From JBDRGX01 sp043817485 [NCBI: bacterium] (GTDB lineage: Bacteria > JBDRGX01), in assembly GCA_043817485.1 (NCBI GenBank), contig JBDRGX010000087.1:1-9198 (forward strand): a stretch of 9,198 nucleotides of DNA, read 5' to 3'. Numbering within the stretch: position 1 is the first letter of the stretch; each line of letters opens with the position of its first letter. The position numbers and the translations under genes were made by a program. The notes under the pieces were generated by a model. The model was not told the DNA's origin. It did not search any database and saw only the letters and a list, made by a program, of their open reading frames with translations. This document shows positions 663-9,198 of this stretch, piece after piece.

Positions 663-2569
663 TTAATTTCTTTCCAAAGAATTTCTCTTATATCTACAAC
701 TTCAATATTCCCTTTTCCTTCTTGAGTAACTTTAGATGCTGCATTTTTAAGTACTTGTTCACAAGTAGGACAAGATGTAATTAAAAAATTTGCACCAGTT
801 TTCAATGCTTGTTTAATTCTATTTTGAGAAATTTTTTCTACTAATAAAGGTTCAGAAACTAACATTCCACCACCACCACCACAACATCTTGAAGTATTTT
901 TTGAATATTCCATTTCTACTAAATCATAACCTAATTTTTTAATAATTTTTCTTGGTTCTTCAATTAATGATAGACCTCTTGAAAAATCACAAGGATCATG
1001 ATAAGTTACTTTTGGTTTAGAATCATTTTTATTTGAAATTTTTTCTAAAATTACTTCTAAAATATGTTTTGGGTTAAGTTTATATTCTTCTTTTAAAAAT
1101 AAAGTACAAGTAGGACAAAAAGTAATTATATTTTCATCTTCTATCATAGAAGAAAATTGTTGTTTATGTTTTTCAAAATTTTCTTCAAATCCTAAATTTT
1201 TCATAGAAAATCCACAACAAATTTCTTTTTTAATTTTTACTTTAATACCTAATTTTTCTAATATTTTAATATACATTTTTGTTTTATTAGTTCGAGATAA
1301 ATATTGACAACCAATGAAAAGTAAAATTTCTCCTTCTTGTTGAGGAAAATTAAGTTCTTTGTCTCCAAAAATATTTTTTGTGTTTTCTATATTTTCTATA
1401 AGTGTTTTGTGAATAGGAGAAATAATTCCTTGTTTTATTAAATAAGTTCTTGCTTCTTGAATAATTTCTGGTACTTTTATTTTTGATGGACATCTTCTAT
1501 AACAATCTTTACATTGAGTACAAGAATAGAAAATTTTTGCTATATTTTCATTTGCTGTAAGTTCACCAGTTAAAAGACCATAAGCATTTAATATTTTTCC
1601 TCTTGCTGTTTCTGTATCCCAATATGTATTTTCAAATATAGGACATACAGATTTACAAAATCCACAATAAGTACAAGTATCCATTTCTTTTTTCCACTTA
1701 CTCAAACAACTTTCTTTTTTATCTAAAGCAATTTCTTTATATCGTAAATCAGTAATAAAACTTCCTTGCCAATCCATCATTTTATTTGGATTCATAATGT
1801 TATTTGGATCTAATGCTTTTTTAATTGATTTCATGATATTTAGACTATCTTTTCTTTCTTTTTGCATTAAAGGAGCTTTAGTAATACCAGATCCATGTTC
1901 TCCTGTAGTAGTGCCTCCAAAAGCAAAAACTGCTTCATACATTTCTTCAACTGCTTTTTCTGCTTTTTGCCATTCTTCTTTTGAAGTAGAATCTAATATA
2001 AATTTAGTATGTAAATTTCCATCTCCAGCATGTCCATAAACAGGAATTAAAAGATCATATTTTTTTGCAATTTGATGAAAAACTTTAACTACATCTGGAA
2101 TTTTTGACATTGGCACAGCCATATCATCAGCCAAAGAAACACAAACTTTATCTTCTATATATCGAGATAAAGAAGGAATCATTGCTTTTCTTGCTGCCCA
2201 AATTTTTGCTTCTTCTTCTTTTTTTTGAGTAAATTTTACTTCTTTAGCACCTGTTTCTTGACAAATTTTAATTACTTTTTCTATATCATTTTTAACTGTT
2301 TCTAATGAACCATCAACACCAATTAATAAAATAGCTTCTACTTCTGGTAACCCCATTTTACTTGCTTTATTAACTGCTTTAATACAAATACTATCCATTA
2401 ATTCTAATTGAGAAGGAATAAGTGGAATAGAAATTATTTCACTTACACATAAAGCAGCTTGTTCTAATTTATCAAAAATAGCCATTGCAGAAGCTGTTGC
2501 TTCTGGTAAAGGTGTTACTTTAAGAATTATTTTTGTAATAACGCCTAAAGTTCCTTCACTTCCAACCAT
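659..2569 (-). CDS. FAD/Fe-S 2-hydroxyacid (glycolate/D-lactate-type) dehydrogenase, C-terminal part of a frameshifted gene
   Basis: This is the larger piece (636 codons) of one gene whose first 181 codons lie in another frame at 2608-3150; read through, the protein would be about 830 residues. The piece opens at VGSEGTLGVIT, the end of the FAD-binding domain. The FAD-linked oxidase C-terminal domain follows, with HAGDGNLH (180-187) and TGEHGSG (222-228). Then come two 4Fe-4S motifs, CTYCGFCKSVCP (299-310) and CTQCKDCYRRCP (350-361), and two CCG domains: CCGF at 451 with CPTC at 485, then HDPC at 524, CCGGGGG at 562 and CPTC at 600. The order equals GlcD followed by GlcF. The likely reaction is oxidation of glycolate, D-lactate or a similar 2-hydroxyacid, with electrons passed through Fe-S clusters to quinone or another carrier; the substrate cannot be read from sequence. 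The ATG at 2567-2569 is an internal methionine, not a natural start. The stop overlaps the lptF/G-type start. Confidence 0.88.
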   Translation of the reverse strand: MVGSEGTLGVITKIILKVTPLPEATASAMAIFDKLEQAALCVSEIISIPLIPSQLELMDSICIKAVNKASKMGLPEVEAILLIGVDGSLETVKNDIEKVIKICQETGAKEVKFTQKKEEEAKIWAARKAMIPSLSRYIEDKVCVSLADDMAVPMSKIPDVVKVFHQIAKKYDLLIPVYGHAGDGNLHTKFILDSTSKEEWQKAEKAVEEMYEAVFAFGGTTTGEHGSGITKAPLMQKERKDSLNIMKSIKKALDPNNIMNPNKMMDWQGSFITDLRYKEIALDKKESCLSKWKKEMDTCTYCGFCKSVCPIFENTYWDTETARGKILNAYGLLTGELTANENIAKIFYSCTQCKDCYRRCPSKIKVPEIIQEARTYLIKQGIISPIHKTLIENIENTKNIFGDKELNFPQQEGEILLFIGCQYLSRTNKTKMYIKILEKLGIKVKIKKEICCGFSMKNLGFEENFEKHKQQFSSMIEDENIITFCPTCTLFLKEEYKLNPKHILEVILEKISNKNDSKPKVTYHDPCDFSRGLSLIEEPRKIIKKLGYDLVEMEYSKNTSRCCGGGGGMLVSEPLLVEKISQNRIKQALKTGANFLITSCPTCEQVLKNAASKVTQEGKGNIEVVDIREILWKEIK

Positions 2570-2577
2570 AAGCCTTG

Positions 2578-3150
2578 CTAATTGATAACCAGAAGTATCT
2601 TTAATTGTTTTGTTCCTAAATTAATTATTTCTCCAAAACTATCTACTATTTCTAATCCTAAAACATAATCTCGTGTTGCTCCATATTTTACTGCTTGTTG
2701 ACCTGATGCATTAGCTGCTACCATTCCTCCAAGAGTACAAACTTCACCACTTCCAGGATCTGGAGAAAAAAAGAATTTAAAAGGTTTAAGAGCATTGTTT
2801 AAAGTTTGATAAATAACACCAGGTTCTATAATACAATATAAATCCTTTACATTTATTTCTAATATTTTATTCATTTTTTGCAAATCAAGGATAACTCCTC
2901 CTTTAATTGGAACTACATGTCCACAAAGAGCAGTTCCAGCACCACGAGGAATAATTGAAATTTTATATTTTTGACAAATTTTCATTATTTCAACTATTTC
3001 ATTTGTATTTTGAGGTTGTATTACAGCTTCTGGTAAATGATGATGAATCCCTGAATCTGCTCCATAAACATATAAAATTTCTTTTTGTATAGAAAAATTT
3101 TCTTCTTTTACAATTTTTTTAAATTGTTCTATTATTTCTGAATTAAACAT
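2578..3150 (-). CDS. FAD-binding N-terminal part of the same dehydrogenase, ending early after a frameshift
   Basis: N-terminal portion of the GlcD-like half. It carries the PCMH-type FAD-binding signature: PRGAGTALCG (68-77), SPDPGSGE (129-136) and GGMVAANASG (141-150), followed by KYGATRDYVLG (155-165). Homology-like sequence stops at GTK (179-181). The last nine codons before TAG look like junk, while the -1 frame reads TIKDTSGYQLAR and runs straight into the VGSEGTLG motif of the downstream piece. One A added to the A4 run (plus-strand T at 2608-2611) restores the expected sequence exactly. The start ATG at 3148-3150 has a good AGGAG (plus 3159-3163) with 8 nt spacing. Alone this piece could not work, since half of the FAD-binding domain is missing. 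The break may be a sequencing error, a recent inactivation, or (less likely) recoding. Confidence 0.86.
   Translation of the reverse strand: MFNSEIIEQFKKIVKEENFSIQKEILYVYGADSGIHHHLPEAVIQPQNTNEIVEIMKICQKYKISIIPRGAGTALCGHVVPIKGGVILDLQKMNKILEINVKDLYCIIEPGVIYQTLNNALKPFKFFFSPDPGSGEVCTLGGMVAANASGQQAVKYGATRDYVLGLEIVDSFGEIINLGTKQLKILLVIN
2608..2611 (-). other. Apparent one-base deletion (frameshift site) in the dehydrogenase gene
   Basis: On the coding strand the sequence reads GGAACAAAACAATTAAAGAT. Frame one gives GTKQLK and soon a stop; with one more A it gives GTKTIKD, continuing into family-typical TSGYQLAR. In-frame stops on either side confine the shift to about 2578-2624. The A4 run is short, so polymerase slippage is not a strong explanation, although a single Lys-tRNA could re-pair one base back on AAA. 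Confidence 0.75.
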
Positions 3151-3158
3151 AGAATCAT

Positions 3159-3163
3159 CTCCT
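3159..3163 (-). promoter_or_regulatory. Ribosome binding site of the dehydrogenase gene
   Basis: AGGAG on the minus strand, 8 nt before the ATG at 3150. It is a clear Shine-Dalgarno and supports this start. Confidence 0.8.
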
Positions 3164-3225
3164 ATTTTTTTTATATTAAAAATTTTTTACTATTCCATTC
3201 TCAATTAATTTATTAAATAGAATAA

Positions 3226-3256
3226 ATTATTGATAATATATTTAATGAAAAGTCAA
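3226..3256 (-). promoter_or_regulatory. Possible promoter of the leftward unit
   Basis: On the minus strand TTGACT (plus 3251-3256) is a 5/6 match to the -35 box, and AATAAT (plus 3226-3231) a 5/6 match to the -10 box. The 19-nt spacer is longer than ideal. The site lies about 75-105 nt upstream of the ATG. In such A+T-rich DNA -10-like words are common, so the -35 is the more informative half. The -35 overlaps the left arm of a 13-bp inverted repeat. Confidence 0.35.
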
Positions 3257-3355
3257 GAAAAATTAATGATTACTACAAGTATTTTAAGTAAATTTAAAAA
3301 AAAAAACAAAGTACAAAATATTAAAAATTTCTACTAATTAAAACTTTTCATTAAA
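3241..3355. repeat. 13-bp inverted repeat pair in the divergent promoter region
   Basis: TTTAATGAAAAGT at 3241-3253 and its exact reverse complement ACTTTTCATTAAA at 3343-3355 are separated by 89 bp. The left arm overlaps the -35 box of the leftward promoter; the right arm lies just upstream of the -35 of the rightward one. Relative to each gene the word therefore has the same orientation, as expected for a regulator site serving both. Chance similarity in A+T-rich DNA cannot be ruled out. Confidence 0.45.
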
Positions 3356-3367
3356 ATCAAAAAAAAA

Positions 3368-3395
3368 TTGACAAAATAAAAAAATAAAGCATATT
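3368..3395 (+). promoter_or_regulatory. Likely sigma-70 promoter of the rightward unit
   Basis: A perfect TTGACA -35 (3368-3373) is followed after 16 nt by CATATT (3390-3395, 4/6 to the -10 consensus). It sits about 35 nt before the ATG of the phosphatase gene and is preceded by an A9 run (3359-3367) that could act as an UP-like element. It is the only convincing promoter for the whole rightward gene set in this window. Confidence 0.5.
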
Positions 3396-3418
3396 TACTA
3401 TTTTGAAAAATTATAAAT

Positions 3419-3423
3419 AGGAG
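3419..3423 (+). promoter_or_regulatory. Ribosome binding site of the metallophosphoesterase gene
   Basis: AGGAG with 7 nt to the ATG at 3431. It fixes the start, which also gives an N-terminus with a signal-peptide shape. Confidence 0.8.
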
Positions 3424-3430
3424 AATACAA

Positions 3431-5509
3431 ATGAAAAAACAAACAAAAAAAAATATTGAAAATGTAATAAAAATATTTGTTATTTTGTTTATTTTAAGCA
3501 TAAATAAAATGGCTTTTACAGACAATAATCCAATAGATAATAATTTAGCAAATAATAATCCAGTAATTATTGGTCCATATCTTCAACCAACAGAAGATTT
3601 AGAACATAGTATGGTTGTATCTTGGATTACAGAAAAAAATTATGAAGCAAAAATTAAATATAGAATTAAGGGACAAAATAGTTTTTTAGAAAAAATTCCT
3701 CAAAAAGAAATAATGTATGTAATGACATTTTCAAATTTAAAATCACCTGGAAAATATGAATATTATATAAAAGGAACAGAAAATGAATTAAAAGGAGAAT
3801 TTGAAATTCCATCAAGTTTTCCATCTCCAAAAGCTTATAGAGAAATATGGTGGATGAGTTCAATTTTAAATGAAAAACTTATTGGATTTTACAAAGAAAA
3901 AGGAACATCTGATTGGAAAGAAACAAATGATTTAAAAATAAGAATAAAACACACTGCTAAATTAACAAATTTACAATCTGGTCAAATATATGAATATACT
4001 GTAGATGATAAAATATATTCTTTTAAAACATCTACATTGGGACAAGAATTTAAAATTGCTTTAATAGCTGATCCTCATGTTGGAGGATATCCTCATACTG
4101 AAAATTTTGAAATAAAAAATAATGAAAAAGTTGTTAAGCATATTATAGAAAATGGAATGCCAGAAATTACTATATTTTTAGGAGATTTAGTACATGGAAG
4201 AAATGTTATAGGCACTTCTTTTGTTGAATATGAAAATTTTTTTATTAGATTTAAAGATTTGTTAACAAGTAGTATTTGTATTGCTACTTTTGGTAATCAT
4301 GATTATGATCTTACAGATAACTATAGTTATACTCTATGGAGAATGTGGTTCACTTTTCCAAATAATGGTCCTAAAGAATTAGAAGATTTAGTATATAGTA
4401 TAAAATATGGAAATGTTTATTTTATCAATCTTCTTTATCAAAAAAGAGATCAACAAATTAATTGGGTAGAACAAGAATTAAAAAAAGCAAAAAACTTAAA
4501 CTATGATTTTATTTTTACATTAGAGCATGTTCCAAGTTACAGTATAGTTGAAAATCCATATAGACAAGTATTTGAATTAGGTAATCAAAATTCTTGGTAT
4601 AAAGATAAAGAAAAATGGTTAAAATTATATAATGATTATGGTGTTGATATCGAATTTTCTGGACATGAACATCTTTTACAAAGAACAGTTCCAATAACAA
4701 CTCATCCAGAAAATTGTCATTATACTGGTTTATTAGAAACTGCTGAACTACATTCTTATTTTGCTAATACTGAAGGAGTAATTTATGCTAATTTACCTAT
4801 TACATGGAAACCTTCTAATTATGTTTCAAATTATATATATAATCCTATTATTTCAAAAAATGCTGGATATGGAGAAGTAATTATTAGGAATAATGGTAAA
4901 ATTTGCAATTTTAAATGTTATTCTTTAGAAAACTTAAATCAATCTTTAATAATAAAAACAAATGATTATTTTACAATAGATAAAACTCAAAATTCTTCTA
5001 AAAAAAATCTTTCTAAAGAAAAAATAGTAATTAATAAAATTCAAGCAAATGTAATTTCTGGATACAAAGCTTTAATACAATGGAATACAAATTTAGAATC
5101 TAAGGGAAGCATTGAATATTGGGAAAAAAATAACAAAGAAAGAAATTTTATGCCTTTGGGAGTAAATGAAATATTTGAAAAAGAACATCAAATAATGTTA
5201 CAACTTCTTACCCCAGAAACAGATTATTGTTATCAAATAACCAATATACGAGAAAAAGAAAAATCTATTAGTGAAATTCAAACATTTAAAACTTATAAAG
5301 CAAAAGAAGAAGAAATTTATGCTCAATTTGATTTTGGTCCTTCTGCTTTTTTACCAGAAAAAGATTATGCAAGAGTTTATCTCTATCCATATAAAAAAGA
5401 ATATAAATATGGTTGGGTAAATCCTTTTGATGAAAATGGAAATTTAATTATACATTGTGGCATAAATGAAAAAAAAACCAGAATTATCTTTACATACTTT
5501 TTGTTATAA
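3431..5509 (+). CDS. Exported purple-acid-phosphatase-like metallophosphoesterase with FN3-type domains, main part of a frameshifted gene
   Basis: Secreted or periplasmic calcineurin-like phosphoesterase. The N-terminus (MKKQTKKN, then a hydrophobic stretch at 12-24) looks like a Sec signal peptide. An FN3-like domain opening with the typical GPYLQP (48-53) covers about 45-125, and a second runs about 135-200. The catalytic domain (207 to about 420) shows the metal-binding blocks ADPH (D214, H216), GDLVHG (D252), GNHD (N289, H290), LEHVPSY (H366) and GHEH (H412, H414). All expected ligands are present, so the enzyme should be active; its substrate is unknown. A third FN3-like domain spans about 532-622. 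From about 629 a beta-rich module begins (FDFGP, YGW) that is interrupted at residue 682, where an A9 tract throws the frame; the last ten residues here are out-of-frame sequence. The module continues in the next frame to 5822, giving about 796 residues. A second A9 tract lies at codons 5-8. Confidence 0.88.
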   Translation: MKKQTKKNIENVIKIFVILFILSINKMAFTDNNPIDNNLANNNPVIIGPYLQPTEDLEHSMVVSWITEKNYEAKIKYRIKGQNSFLEKIPQKEIMYVMTFSNLKSPGKYEYYIKGTENELKGEFEIPSSFPSPKAYREIWWMSSILNEKLIGFYKEKGTSDWKETNDLKIRIKHTAKLTNLQSGQIYEYTVDDKIYSFKTSTLGQEFKIALIADPHVGGYPHTENFEIKNNEKVVKHIIENGMPEITIFLGDLVHGRNVIGTSFVEYENFFIRFKDLLTSSICIATFGNHDYDLTDNYSYTLWRMWFTFPNNGPKELEDLVYSIKYGNVYFINLLYQKRDQQINWVEQELKKAKNLNYDFIFTLEHVPSYSIVENPYRQVFELGNQNSWYKDKEKWLKLYNDYGVDIEFSGHEHLLQRTVPITTHPENCHYTGLLETAELHSYFANTEGVIYANLPITWKPSNYVSNYIYNPIISKNAGYGEVIIRNNGKICNFKCYSLENLNQSLIIKTNDYFTIDKTQNSSKKNLSKEKIVINKIQANVISGYKALIQWNTNLESKGSIEYWEKNNKERNFMPLGVNEIFEKEHQIMLQLLTPETDYCYQITNIREKEKSISEIQTFKTYKAKEEEIYAQFDFGPSAFLPEKDYARVYLYPYKKEYKYGWVNPFDENGNLIIHCGINEKKTRIIFTYFLL

Positions 5510-5822
5510 TGATAATAAATTAAAACAAATATTTAGAGTTGATTTACCTAATGGAAATTATCAAGTAGAAATTGGAAGTGGAAAAGGTGGTAATTATCAA
5601 GGAAATACTTTATTAAATATTCAAAATGGACAACATATTTGTGAATATTCAAAATTAGATGGGAAAAAAAGTGTTTTAGTATTTAATAAAAAAATAAAAG
5701 TAGATAATGGATTTTTACAAATAGAAATGGGATATGAAAATGATAAGTATGAAAAAAAAGATAAAAAATATGAAGATTGTTCAATTATAAATTATCTTAA
5801 GATTTATAAAAATGAAGAATGA
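5466..5822 (+). CDS. C-terminal part of the phosphoesterase: rest of a putative carbohydrate-binding-like module
   Basis: This frame (118 codons from the ATG at 5466) is best read as the continuation of the phosphoesterase, not as its own gene. It starts mid-domain, has no Shine-Dalgarno, and from PELSLH onward completes the module begun by FDFGP upstream, through FRVDLPNGNYQVEIGSG to a final beta-strand-like INYLKIYK. The FDFGP...GW...FRVDLPNGxYxV pattern resembles galactose-binding or malectin-like beta-sandwich modules attached to extracellular enzymes; that is an inference from pattern, and the ligand is unknown. Removing one A from the run at 5469-5477 fuses it in frame after GINEKK. The stop (TGA, 5820-5822) overlaps the start of a 33-codon ORF as ATGA. 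Confidence 0.75.
   Translation: MKKKPELSLHTFCYNDNKLKQIFRVDLPNGNYQVEIGSGKGGNYQGNTLLNIQNGQHICEYSKLDGKKSVLVFNKKIKVDNGFLQIEMGYENDKYEKKDKKYEDCSIINYLKIYKNEE
5469..5477 (+). other. A9 tract with apparent +1 frameshift in the phosphoesterase gene
   Basis: Nine consecutive A residues lie where the reading frame changes. With eight A the gene reads GINEKKPELSLH and is open to 5822; with nine it stops at 5509. Tracts of this length are known sites of replication slippage, RNA-polymerase slippage and sequencing error, so the same DNA could still yield some full-length protein. Confidence 0.75.
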
Positions 5823-5920
5823 AAAATTATCAAGTTGTTTCAAAAAACTTTGTAGTTTACTGCAAAAATAAATTGATACAAAAATCTTTATTTGATAAAT
5901 TTGGAAAAATAGATTTATGA
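5819..5920 (+). CDS. 33-codon hypothetical ORF, ATGA-overlapped on both sides
   Basis: A short ORF whose ATG (5819-5821) overlaps the phosphoesterase TGA and whose TGA (5918-5920) overlaps the plsY ATG; both junctions are ATGA. It fills the 94-nt gap between those genes exactly. The product begins MKNYQVVSKNFVVYCKN and ends with FGKIDL. It is basic, has one Cys (16), and shows no signal peptide, membrane segment or recognised motif. Its A+T-rich codon use matches its neighbours. The double overlap argues for translational coupling of plsY to upstream translation, with the peptide either functional or just a coupling ORF. I do not recognise a family. A remnant of a longer gene is another possibility. 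Confidence 0.5.
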   Translation: MKNYQVVSKNFVVYCKNKLIQKSLFDKFGKIDL

Positions 5921-6543
5921 TATTATTATTAGGTATAATTATAAGTTATTTAATAGGGTCTATTCCAACTGCTTTAATAGTGGGAAAATTTTTCAATATA
6001 GACATTCGCAAACATGGTAGTGGAAATATTGGAGCAGCAAATACTTTCAGAGTATTAGGAAAAGTTCCTGGATTAATAGTTTGGATTGGAGATATTTTAA
6101 AAGGTGTTATTCCCGTACTTATTATTTCTCAAATAATAAAACCTTATGCTAATATTTCTATTATAAATTTACAAATTCTTTTAGGTAGTATGGCTATTCT
6201 TGGACATGTATTTCCAATATTTTTACAATTTAAAGGTGGAAAAGCTATTGCAACATCTACAGGTGTATTTTTAGGAATAGAACCTGTTTTAATGAGTATT
6301 TCAATATTAGTTTTATTTCTATTACTTAAAATTACTAAATATTTTTCTGTAGGAACTCTTAGTTCTTTTTTAAGTTTAGTTATTTTAATTTGGATATTTG
6401 AAAAATTATCTTTTATAAGTATATTTGCTACATTAGTTTTTATATTTGTTTTAATTCTGCATAAAAGTAATATTAAAAGACTAATTCAAGGAAAAGAAAA
6501 TAAAATGCATTTTTCTTCATCTTCTAACAAAGAAAAAAAATGA
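5917..6543 (+). CDS. plsY: Acyl-phosphate:glycerol-3-phosphate acyltransferase PlsY
   Basis: Integral membrane enzyme that transfers an acyl group from acyl-phosphate (made by PlsX) to sn-glycerol-3-phosphate, giving lysophosphatidic acid, the first step of phospholipid synthesis. At 208 residues it has the usual family length. The three conserved cytoplasmic motifs are present: GSIPTA (14-19) and HGSGNIGAAN (33-42), then FKGGKA (105-110), then HKSNIKRLIQGKEN (182-195). Hydrophobic segments lie near 2-22, 53-72, 85-104, 111-138 and 143-181. The Lys/Ser-rich tail after 195 is not conserved in the family. The start at 5917 places the first membrane helix at the very N-terminus, as is normal; the nearest purine-rich site (GGAAAAA) is weak, so coupling to the upstream micro-ORF through the ATGA overlap is likely. 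The merR-type gene follows after 10 nt. Confidence 0.95.
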   Translation: MILLLGIIISYLIGSIPTALIVGKFFNIDIRKHGSGNIGAANTFRVLGKVPGLIVWIGDILKGVIPVLIISQIIKPYANISIINLQILLGSMAILGHVFPIFLQFKGGKAIATSTGVFLGIEPVLMSISILVLFLLLKITKYFSVGTLSSFLSLVILIWIFEKLSFISIFATLVFIFVLILHKSNIKRLIQGKENKMHFSSSSNKEKK

Positions 6544-6553
6544 AATTTTAAAA

Positions 6554-6916
6554 ATGGAAGAAAAAAAATTACCAAATAAAAATTTTTATTTAATAAATGA
6601 AATAAGTGAATTTTTAAATATAAAATCTTTTGTTTTAAGATATTGGGAAACAGAATTTGAAATATTAAAGCCCATTAGAACTAAAGGCAAACAAAGAAGA
6701 TATAAAAAAGAGGATATAGATATAATTTTTTTAATAAAAGATCTTTTGTATAATAAAAAATACACTATTGCTGGAGCTAAAAATTTTTTACTTAAAAATA
6801 ACCATTATCTTAAAGAAGAATCTTTAGAAAAATCTTTAGATGAAAAAACTGAATTACCTGTTTTTATTGCTTCATTAAAACAAGATTTAGTATCATTATT
6901 AAATATCTTTAAATAA
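6554..6916 (+). CDS. MerR-family DNA-binding regulator
   Basis: Small cytoplasmic transcription factor of 120 residues. A MerR-type winged helix-turn-helix occupies about 11-80: FYLINEISEFLNIKSFVLRYWE (11-32) is the HTH with the characteristic LRYWE, RRYKKEDI (48-55) starts the wing and following helix, and TIAGAKNFL (71-79) closes the domain. No Cys is present, so a metal or thiol sensor like MerR or SoxR is unlikely; the short C-terminal part (about 90-120) could form a dimer helix. This matches the effector-less MerR-like proteins found beside housekeeping genes. No Shine-Dalgarno is visible before the ATG, and the gene is packed between plsY (10 nt) and coaB (1 nt), so it is probably translated by coupling. 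Its targets are unknown; the repeat at 3241-3355 is one place to test. Confidence 0.88.
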   Translation: MEEKKLPNKNFYLINEISEFLNIKSFVLRYWETEFEILKPIRTKGKQRRYKKEDIDIIFLIKDLLYNKKYTIAGAKNFLLKNNHYLKEESLEKSLDEKTELPVFIASLKQDLVSLLNIFK

Positions 6917-6917
6917 T

Positions 6918-7550
6918 ATGAAAAATATATTAATTACTAGTGGACCTACTCAAGCAAATATTGATCCCGTAAGATATATTGCTAATACATCAACTGGAGA
7001 ATTAGGTACAAAAATTGCAAAAGAATTTTTAAAATACAAAAATAAAGTGACATTTATTTATGGAAAAAATAGTATTTTTCCATCAAAAAAAACTGAAAAT
7101 CTGTGTTTAATAGAAATCATTACAATCAATGATTTAATTAAAGTTATTAAAAAAGAATTAAATAAAACAAGATATGATATTATTGTTCATTTAATGGCTG
7201 TATTAGATTATGTTCCAGAAAAATATAATACAAAAAAAATTGCTTCAAATAAAAAAAACTTAATTATTAAATTAGTACAAACTCCTAAAGTAATAAAAAT
7301 CATAAGAAAACTTGCTCCTGCTTCTTTTTTAATTGGGTTTAAATTAGAAGTAAATAAAAAAGAAAATTCACTTATAAAAACGGCTTTAGAGTTTTTGAAA
7401 AAAAATAAATTAGATATGGTTGTGGTAAATGATTTTAAAAAAATAAAAGAAAATACCCATATAGCTTTTTTAATAAATAAACAAGGAATTATTAACAAAG
7501 AAATAACTAAAGAAAAAATTGCTAAAAAAATAGTTTTTTTATTAAAATAA
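6918..7550 (+). CDS. coaB: Standalone phosphopantothenate--cysteine ligase (CoaB)
   Basis: Catalyses CTP-dependent joining of cysteine to 4'-phosphopantothenate in CoA synthesis. The 210 residues cover only the CoaB (DFP) domain, without the flavin-binding CoaC decarboxylase half of the usual bifunctional CoaBC. Visible motifs are a nucleotide-binding start [20 protein letters not shown] (4-23), STGELG (25-30), MAVLDYVP (93-100), KIAS (107-110), TPKVI (122-126), LIGFKLEV (138-145) and DMVVVND (166-172). The combination MAV-DY-P, KI-S and GFKL resembles, from memory, the standalone streptococcal/enterococcal CoaB more than the C-terminal half of E. coli CoaBC, which has GFAAET. CoaC must be encoded elsewhere. 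It begins 1 nt after the merR-type stop with no clear Shine-Dalgarno, so coupling is likely. Full length for a single-domain CoaB. Confidence 0.87.
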
Positions 7551-7559
7551 AAATTAAAT

Positions 7560-7564
7560 GGAGG
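7560..7564 (+). promoter_or_regulatory. Ribosome binding site that fixes the TTG start of ilvB
   Basis: GGAGG, 9 nt before TTG at 7574. No in-frame ATG exists before the conserved N-terminus, and the nearby ATG at 7558 is out of frame, so this site decides the start. Confidence 0.8.
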
Positions 7565-7573
7565 AAAATTATT

Positions 7574-9198
7574 TTGAAAAAAACAGGTTCACAAATTTTC
7601 ATAGATGCTCTTGTTAAAGAAAAAGTAAAAGCAATGTTTGGTTATCCAGGTGGAGCAGTATTACCAATTTTTGATGCTTTATATGATTCTCCAATTAAAT
7701 TTTACTTAACAAGACATGAACAAGCAGCAGCTCATGCAGCTGATGGTTATGCTCGAGCAACAGGAAAAGTAGGAGTTTGTTTAGCTACATCTGGACCAGG
7801 AGCAACAAATTTAGTTACAGGCATTGCTACGGCCTATATGGATTCTATTCCAATGGTTGCTTTTACGGGTCAAGTAAATACAACTTTAATTGGAAATGAT
7901 GCTTTTCAAGAAGCAGATATTACTGGAATTACTCGTCCTATAACAAAATATAATTATATTGTAAAAAAAACTGAAGACCTTGCTCAAATTATTCATGAAG
8001 CATTTTATATTGCTTCTTCTGGGAGACCAGGTCCAGTTTTAGTAGATATACCTAAAGATGTGCAAAGTAATAGTATTTTTACTCATAATAAAGATATAAA
8101 AGTAGATTTAAGAAGTTATAATCCTAATTATCACGGACATATTAAACAAATCAAAAAAGCAGTAGAACTTATTAATCAATCTTTAAAACCAGTAATTTAT
8201 TCTGGTGGTGGTATAATTTCTTCTGAATCTTCAAATGAATTAACAGAATTTGCTATTAAAGCAAATATTCCAGTAACAAATACTCTTTTGGGCTTAGGTG
8301 GATTCCCTGGAACTCATCCTTTATTTTTAGGAATGTTAGGAATGCATGGAACTTGGACTGCCAATATGGCAATTACTAATTCAGATTTAATCATTGCTAT
8401 AGGTGCTCGATTTGATGATAGAGTTACTGGAAAAGTAGAATCTTTTGCACCTCATGCTAAAATAATTCATATAGATATAGATCCTTCTTCTATTAGCAAA
8501 AATGTAATTGTAGATATACCTATTGTAGGAGATGCTAAATATACCCTAATTGAATTATTAAAATATGTAGAAACAAAAAAAAGAATAGATTGGTTTGAAC
8601 AAATTAGTAAATGGAAAGAAAAACATCCTTTAAAATATAAACATAGTGATGAAATAATTAAACCTCAACATGTAATAGAAGAAATTTATAAAATAACAAA
8701 AGGGGAAGCTATTATTGTTACTGAAGTAGGACAAAATCAAATGTGGTCTGCTCAATTTTACAAATTTAATAATCCTCGTAATTTTATTTCTTCTGGAGGA
8801 TTAGGAACTATGGGATTTGGATTTCCAGCAGCTCTGGGAGCACAAATAGGACATCCAGATAAAATAGTTTTTGATATTGCTGGAGATGGTAGTATTCAAA
8901 TGAATTCTCAAGATTTAATGACAGCAAGTGTTTATAATATTCCCGTTAAAATAGCTATTTTAAATAATTCTTGTTTAGGAATGGTAAGGCAATGGCAAGA
9001 ATTATTTTACAAAAAAAGATATTCATCTACTTTATTGAAAAATCCAGATTTTGTTAAATTAGCTGAAAGTTATGGAATATTGGGCTTAAAAGCAACAAAA
9101 CCTTCAGAAGTAGAAAATACTATTAAAAAAGCTTTATCTGTAAAAGGTCCAGTAGTTATGGAATTTGTAGTTGCTAATGAAGAAAATGTTTTTCCAAT
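7574..9198 (+). CDS. ilvB: Acetolactate synthase, large (catalytic) subunit, 3' end cut off
   Basis: Thiamine-diphosphate enzyme that condenses two pyruvates to 2-acetolactate (or pyruvate with 2-oxobutyrate), the first common step to Val, Leu and Ile. About 541 residues are present of a usual 560-570, so only the last 20-30 are missing at the right edge. Visible are [12 protein letters not shown] (23-34), catalytic Glu49 in TRHEQAA, SGPGATN, the FAD-region signature [58 protein letters not shown], and the ThDP/Mg motif from GDGS (437-440) to NN (464-465). The WQELF region follows at about 484-488. TTG is the start, with GGAGG 9 nt upstream. It begins 23 nt after coaB, too close for an attenuator or T-box, so it probably depends on upstream transcription. 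ilvN and ilvC commonly follow ilvB and may lie just outside the window. Confidence 0.96.

Follow-up and report, generated by a model that had tools for sequence, protein, structure and literature searches.

The window, by which we mean the whole 9,198-nt stretch of DNA analysed here, is AT-rich, with 20–30% G+C per 1-kb tile and about 25% overall. Its plus strand carries genes for a phosphoesterase, the glycerol-3-phosphate acyltransferase PlsY (plsY, 5917–6543, scoring over the cut-off of TIGR00023), a MerR-family regulator (merR, 6554–6916), a DFP/CoaB-like phosphopantothenate-cysteine ligase (dfp, 6918–7550) and IlvB. The merR gene starts 10 nt after plsY and dfp starts 1 nt after merR, and no Shine-Dalgarno (SD) sequence was found before either of them. 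The product of dfp consists of the DFP/CoaB domain as a protein of its own, without the decarboxylase part of CoaBC. The phosphoesterase is distributed over two frames. The first (3431–5509, plus strand), preceded by AGGAG, encodes fn3, metallophosphatase and purple-acid-phosphatase N-terminal-like domains, and the next frame (5466–5822, plus strand) encodes the 3′ part and shows gene-like codon-position G+C values. An A9 tract (5469–5477) is located inside the 5466–5509 overlap of these two frames. On the minus strand, a single frame (659–2569) combines FAD-oxidase C-terminal, 4Fe-4S and CCG domains and resembles what we take to be a GlcD-GlcF fusion, referred to here as glcDF; the FAD-binding part of glcD is encoded at 2578–3150 on the same strand.

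Between the phosphoesterase gene and plsY lies an ORF of 33 sense codons (5819–5920, plus strand), a candidate ribosome relay, which begins with ATG at 5819–5821 and ends with TGA at 5918–5920. The phosphoesterase frame stops at TGA 5820–5822, so that this stop and the start of the micro-ORF are contained in a common ATGA (5819–5822). The stop of the micro-ORF and the plsY start codon ATG 5917–5919 are likewise contained in a second ATGA (5917–5920). A stop and a start thus coincide in one ATGA at both ends of the micro-ORF, which is the defining feature of ATGA-coupled gene pairs. The spacer between the two ATGAs measures 94 nt, and its two remaining forward frames are interrupted by stops. 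The first-pass annotation had described a 33-codon ORF that exactly occupies the gap with an ATGA overlap on either side, and our coordinates match that description.

Several simple explanations of this ORF were rejected. Reading of TGA as a sense codon was ruled out by the Trp codons: the 27 that were counted across the nine gene pieces of the window are without exception TGG; the three TGA codons of these pieces are all terminal and none is internal. The match of PlsY to TIGR00023 begins at residue 2, and an N-terminal extension of PlsY by the micro-ORF is therefore superfluous. A further part of the phosphoesterase was ruled out by the different frame. An origin by local duplication was also considered. 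Elsewhere in the window the spacer matches best (66%) to 5466–5543, which begins with the ATG opening the 3′ part of the phosphoesterase. Of 500 dinucleotide-shuffled versions of the spacer, 182 matched the rest of the window as well, 38 of 500 did so against the plus strand of the phosphoesterase only, and 26 of 90 other 102-nt tiles scored as well; local duplication was therefore rejected. Short two-copy repeats in 5700–6000 are 71–86% alike and were regarded as chance. Comparison of the spacer DNA with plasmids at E values up to 1 returned 22 records, all with less than 80% query coverage; the best five of the 22 had E values of 0.1–0.4 and were likewise regarded as chance.

The foremost support for coupling comes from the distribution of SD sequences over the eight starts of the window. 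The three starts that do not closely follow a stop carry strong SD sequences, namely AGGAG before glcD, AGGAG before the phosphoesterase gene and GGAGG before ilvB, which starts 23 nt after the dfp stop. All five starts located −4 to +10 nt from a preceding stop (lptF, the micro-ORF, plsY, merR and dfp) are devoid of a strong SD sequence: the best SD-like match is GGA for lptF and plsY, and none exists for the micro-ORF, merR and dfp. For plsY this GGA (5903–5905, plus strand) is the longest match, with 3 nt at a spacing of 11. If the micro-ORF is counted, all eight starts obey one rule, which was noticed after the fact and covers the eight starts of this window; if it is omitted, plsY lies 94 nt from the nearest preceding stop and becomes the exception. 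Of the eight starts, that of plsY has the largest predicted opening energy (9.2 kcal/mol), a value within the scatter of 160 random ATGs (mean 7.7, sd 3.0).

As the most likely working explanation, to which we assign a probability of roughly 0.5, we propose that ribosomes are relayed to plsY by termination and reinitiation through the spacer ORF. Ribosomes terminating translation of the phosphoesterase at TGA 5820–5822 would reinitiate at the overlapping ATG 5819, translate 33 codons, stop at TGA 5918–5920 and reinitiate at the plsY ATG 5917. From plsY, ribosomes may pass on to merR across a gap of 10 nt and from there to dfp across 1 nt; both genes likewise lack an SD sequence. Translation through the spacer would also unfold a hairpin predicted there together with the plsY start, and the peptide made on the way is probably incidental. 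With junctions of −4 nt on both sides, no strong SD sequence and a gap of 94 nt, translational coupling is plausible and the best-supported mechanism. Provided that translation of the phosphoesterase runs to its stop, a micro-ORF of such geometry should pass ribosomes on to plsY, whether it was selected for this or not.

Published work on gene pairs bears on this proposal in both directions. An overlap of −4 nt is described as by far the commonest geometry in unidirectional gene pairs (Huber et al. 2023, PMC10666635). For three E. coli pairs the same article reports that a gap of 38 nt reduced reinitiation by 80–90% or abolished it, and for the two E. coli pairs tested that the final 15 nt of the upstream gene were enough for reinitiation. 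A short ORF could therefore mend the break that a 94-nt gap would cause. Coupling was reported as strict in nine of nine Haloferax pairs, and the E. coli pairs were coupled with one exception (Huber et al. 2019, PMC6728339). A 2025 review (PMC12548453) cites studies in which coupling was unaffected up to +25 nt and others in which it fell only gradually, between +50 and +350 nt; according to these accounts of coupling over longer gaps, a bridge may therefore be dispensable. The same review considers that short upstream ORFs could exist solely for the delivery of ribosomes. If real, the arrangement would represent a natural ribosome bridge that keeps a gene without a strong ribosome-binding site of its own translated even though the gap before it exceeds what direct reinitiation can span.

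The alternative with the next best claim, which we regard as possible and somewhat less probable, is that the AT-rich spacer is open by luck and that the flanking gene ends just happen to be ATGA. Initiation at plsY would then be independent, on an AT-rich leader poor in SD sequence or by way of a promoter close by, and any translation of the micro-ORF would be noise. We simulated this situation by keeping the real flanks and both ATGAs fixed and randomising the 94-nt spacer (40,000 trials per null model). An open frame linking both ATGAs arose in 7.4% of trials with an order-2 model of 3151–9198, in 8.7% with an order-2 model of both window strands and in 1.7% with independent bases near the spacer composition. 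When the spacer was allowed any length from 60 to 130 nt, the frequencies under the order-2 models were 2.8% and 3.2%. These simulations, which presuppose both ATGA ends, thus allow an accidental frame in 2–9% of cases.

Three of five complete gene ends in this window (glcDF, phosphoesterase and plsY) read ATGA. A further intergenic ATGA, in which glcDF ends and lptF starts, is located at 659–662 on the minus strand. When genes were ignored, the whole window contained one ATGA-framed ORF of 15–60 codons per strand. The one on the minus strand (8314–8394, 26 codons) is antisense within ilvB; it serves as a chance control and speaks for an accidental origin of its counterpart in the spacer. A three-codon ORF (ATG AAA TTT TAA, 6540–6551) opens within the ATGA that closes plsY; it ends 2 nt before merR and is a miniature of the micro-ORF layout that could easily be due to chance.

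As an external yardstick we used 400 kb of Fusobacterium vincentii (26–29% G+C) in eight 50-kb stretches, in which a simple ORF script, run without annotation and choosing starts partly by SD sequence, defined 327 genes. Among 59 tandem gaps of 40–160 nt in these stretches, none contained an ORF lying −8 to +6 nt from each of its neighbours; with looser limits, one of 59 did. ATGA was present at the upstream end of two and at the downstream start of 29 of the 59 gaps. The absence of the arrangement from all comparable Fusobacterium gaps argues against an accidental frame, as does the fact that plsY has GGA alone, compared with 5-nt SD sequences at the three starts that do not closely follow a stop. 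Taken together, the arrangement of the micro-ORF is real and mildly unusual and is statistically not compelling; luck could well produce one such case among the few hundred spacers that a genome may have. The first-pass annotation had considered chance unlikely and had taken this as pointing to selected translational coupling. The coupling is plausible, as outlined above; selection for it is not demonstrated, because an open frame arises by chance in 2–9% of cases once the ATGAs are given.

The coding content of the micro-ORF was assessed with a codon score trained on the genes of the window. The micro-ORF scored higher than only 3.0% of 330 real 32-codon segments (2.6–3.2% of 656 in a second run), and 3.5–3.9% of 3,000 simulated open frames as well as 36% of 188 open out-of-frame stretches of window genes scored at least as high as the micro-ORF. 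The resulting density ratio of coding to random is 0.96–1.65, and the codon score therefore hardly decides between the two. The G+C content by codon position amounts to 0.27, 0.12 and 0.15 for the micro-ORF compared with 0.38, 0.30 and 0.08 for the genes. Of 718 real 33-codon segments, 4.2% had a third-position G+C content equal to or above that of the second position, compared with 55% of 2,000 random ones. This pattern, which is unlike that of genes, leans against a selected peptide and favours an accidental frame.

Searches with the encoded peptide point in the same direction. There were no matches to Pfam at E values up to 1 or to NCBIfam at E values up to 0.01, a single match to PHROGs had an E value of 0.2 and was regarded as chance, and tblastn against plasmids and phages yielded nothing at E values up to 1. 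The lack of a tblastn match and of any family match better than E 0.2 is also what an accidental frame would produce. The peptide is lysine-rich, and no membrane segment was apparent by eye. That the micro-ORF encodes a small protein with a function, 33 residues long and made together with the phosphoesterase and PlsY, would agree with the open frame having an ATG and with a codon score compatible with coding; it appears very improbable to us in view of these search results, the lysine-rich composition without evident membrane segment and the weak codon-position pattern. The functional peptide contemplated in the first-pass annotation thus found no backing in these searches, and the codon content is borderline.

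We also considered that the spacer acts as RNA. An imperfect hairpin of −18.6 kcal/mol, for which the folding gives weak support, was predicted at 5800–5902 (plus strand) and comprises most of the spacer. In its 151-nt context (5800–5950) the fold reached z = −2.4, and three of 200 shuffles were equally stable. When plus-strand tiles are ordered by how well they fold in relation to their G+C content, the hairpin ranks fourth. The tiles ranking above it are located in coding regions such as ilvB, and little weight was therefore given to it. No terminator-like site was found in 5400–7700, and the window had no Rfam match at gathering scores. That the hairpin is an element for mRNA stability or attenuation, with the open frame as a by-product, would account for the stability of the fold and its rank; given the better tiles in coding regions and the absence of such signals, we consider it the least probable of the explanations discussed. 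Promoter-like matches in 5400–7700 numbered 21 compared with 19.6 expected from shuffles, which is no excess. A few of them are located in the spacer or at its end, and these would suit independent initiation of plsY next to an accidental frame, even though the region as a whole stays at the shuffle rate.

The proposed relay would depend on ribosomes reaching the end of the phosphoesterase. If the A9 tract is real and the ribosomes do not slip on it, they would halt about 310 nt short of the micro-ORF, leaving the relay unfed. The claim that plsY translation depends on the A9 tract accordingly holds only on condition that the tract is genuine and that the mRNA carries it without correction. 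A second frame break occurs in glcD (about 2569–2620, minus strand); it lies between two complete domains, FAD-binding and FAD-oxidase C-terminal, and outside any homopolymer of 8 or more. For two frame breaks in 9.2 kb, sequence error or decay fit as well as slippage, and the dependence on A9 is conditional for this reason too. If the relay is real, a frame error in the upstream gene could lower expression of plsY, a gene of lipid synthesis.

Relatives of the locus were sought by means of the neighbouring genes. A scan of genome contigs for PlsY gave one relative among 40 pattern matches, with 33% identity, in an Actinomycetes record. In 60 sampled genomes of the phylum of this record, 34 had a PlsY match and none exceeded 43% identity, which gives no sign that the window comes from this phylum. 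Viral contigs scanned with PlsY, IlvB, the phosphoesterase, GlcDF and DFP contained no relative. Against plasmids, tblastn with PlsY returned 57 records, all below 60% identity, and tblastn with IlvB returned 1652 records, 1651 below 60% identity and one in the 60–80% band. Among the few titles and abstract openings that a literature search returned, none dealt with this arrangement.

Among known systems, ATGA termination-reinitiation pairs (PMC10666635) come closest in geometry: as in the pairs described there, both junctions here are at −4 nt and the downstream starts lack a strong SD sequence. Unlike in these pairs, the two junctions enclose a 33-codon ORF instead of joining two ordinary genes, and the coupling is predicted. 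Of the two partners at the downstream junction, plsY scores over the TIGR00023 cut-off, and the micro-ORF is without a homolog in the family and tblastn searches.

MIRUs, which insert at start codons and carry an ORF of their own coupled at −4 nt (PMC12548453), resemble the micro-ORF in this geometry. They are described there as mycobacterial and apparently mobile repeats; for the spacer, no second copy above chance was found in the AT-rich 9.2-kb window. One may imagine that the 98 nt of 5819–5916 represent an insertion into an ancestral ATGA overlap between phosphoesterase and plsY, which would have duplicated the ATGA and brought in a frame along which ribosomes could continue to plsY, making it a MIRU-like relay outside mycobacteria in a very AT-rich lineage. 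We consider such an origin very unlikely, at about the same low level as a functional small protein or slightly below it.

The tap-repA system of plasmid R1 offers another parallel, as a short frame precedes a gene to which it would deliver ribosomes (PMC5717011). The micro-ORF resembles the tap leader in position, ending in the ATGA at 5917–5920, and its driving of plsY is putative. As described in that source, an antisense RNA controls tap, which is part of the replication control of a plasmid. In the window the short ORF is itself linked to the gene before it, its neighbours are of housekeeping types, no antisense RNA is known and there was no Rfam match at gathering scores. Mycobacterial uORFs are similar in being short ORFs that may pass ribosomes to the next gene. 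The proposed relay through the spacer ORF is a mechanism of a known kind, to which tap-repA, mycobacterial uORFs and MIRUs belong.
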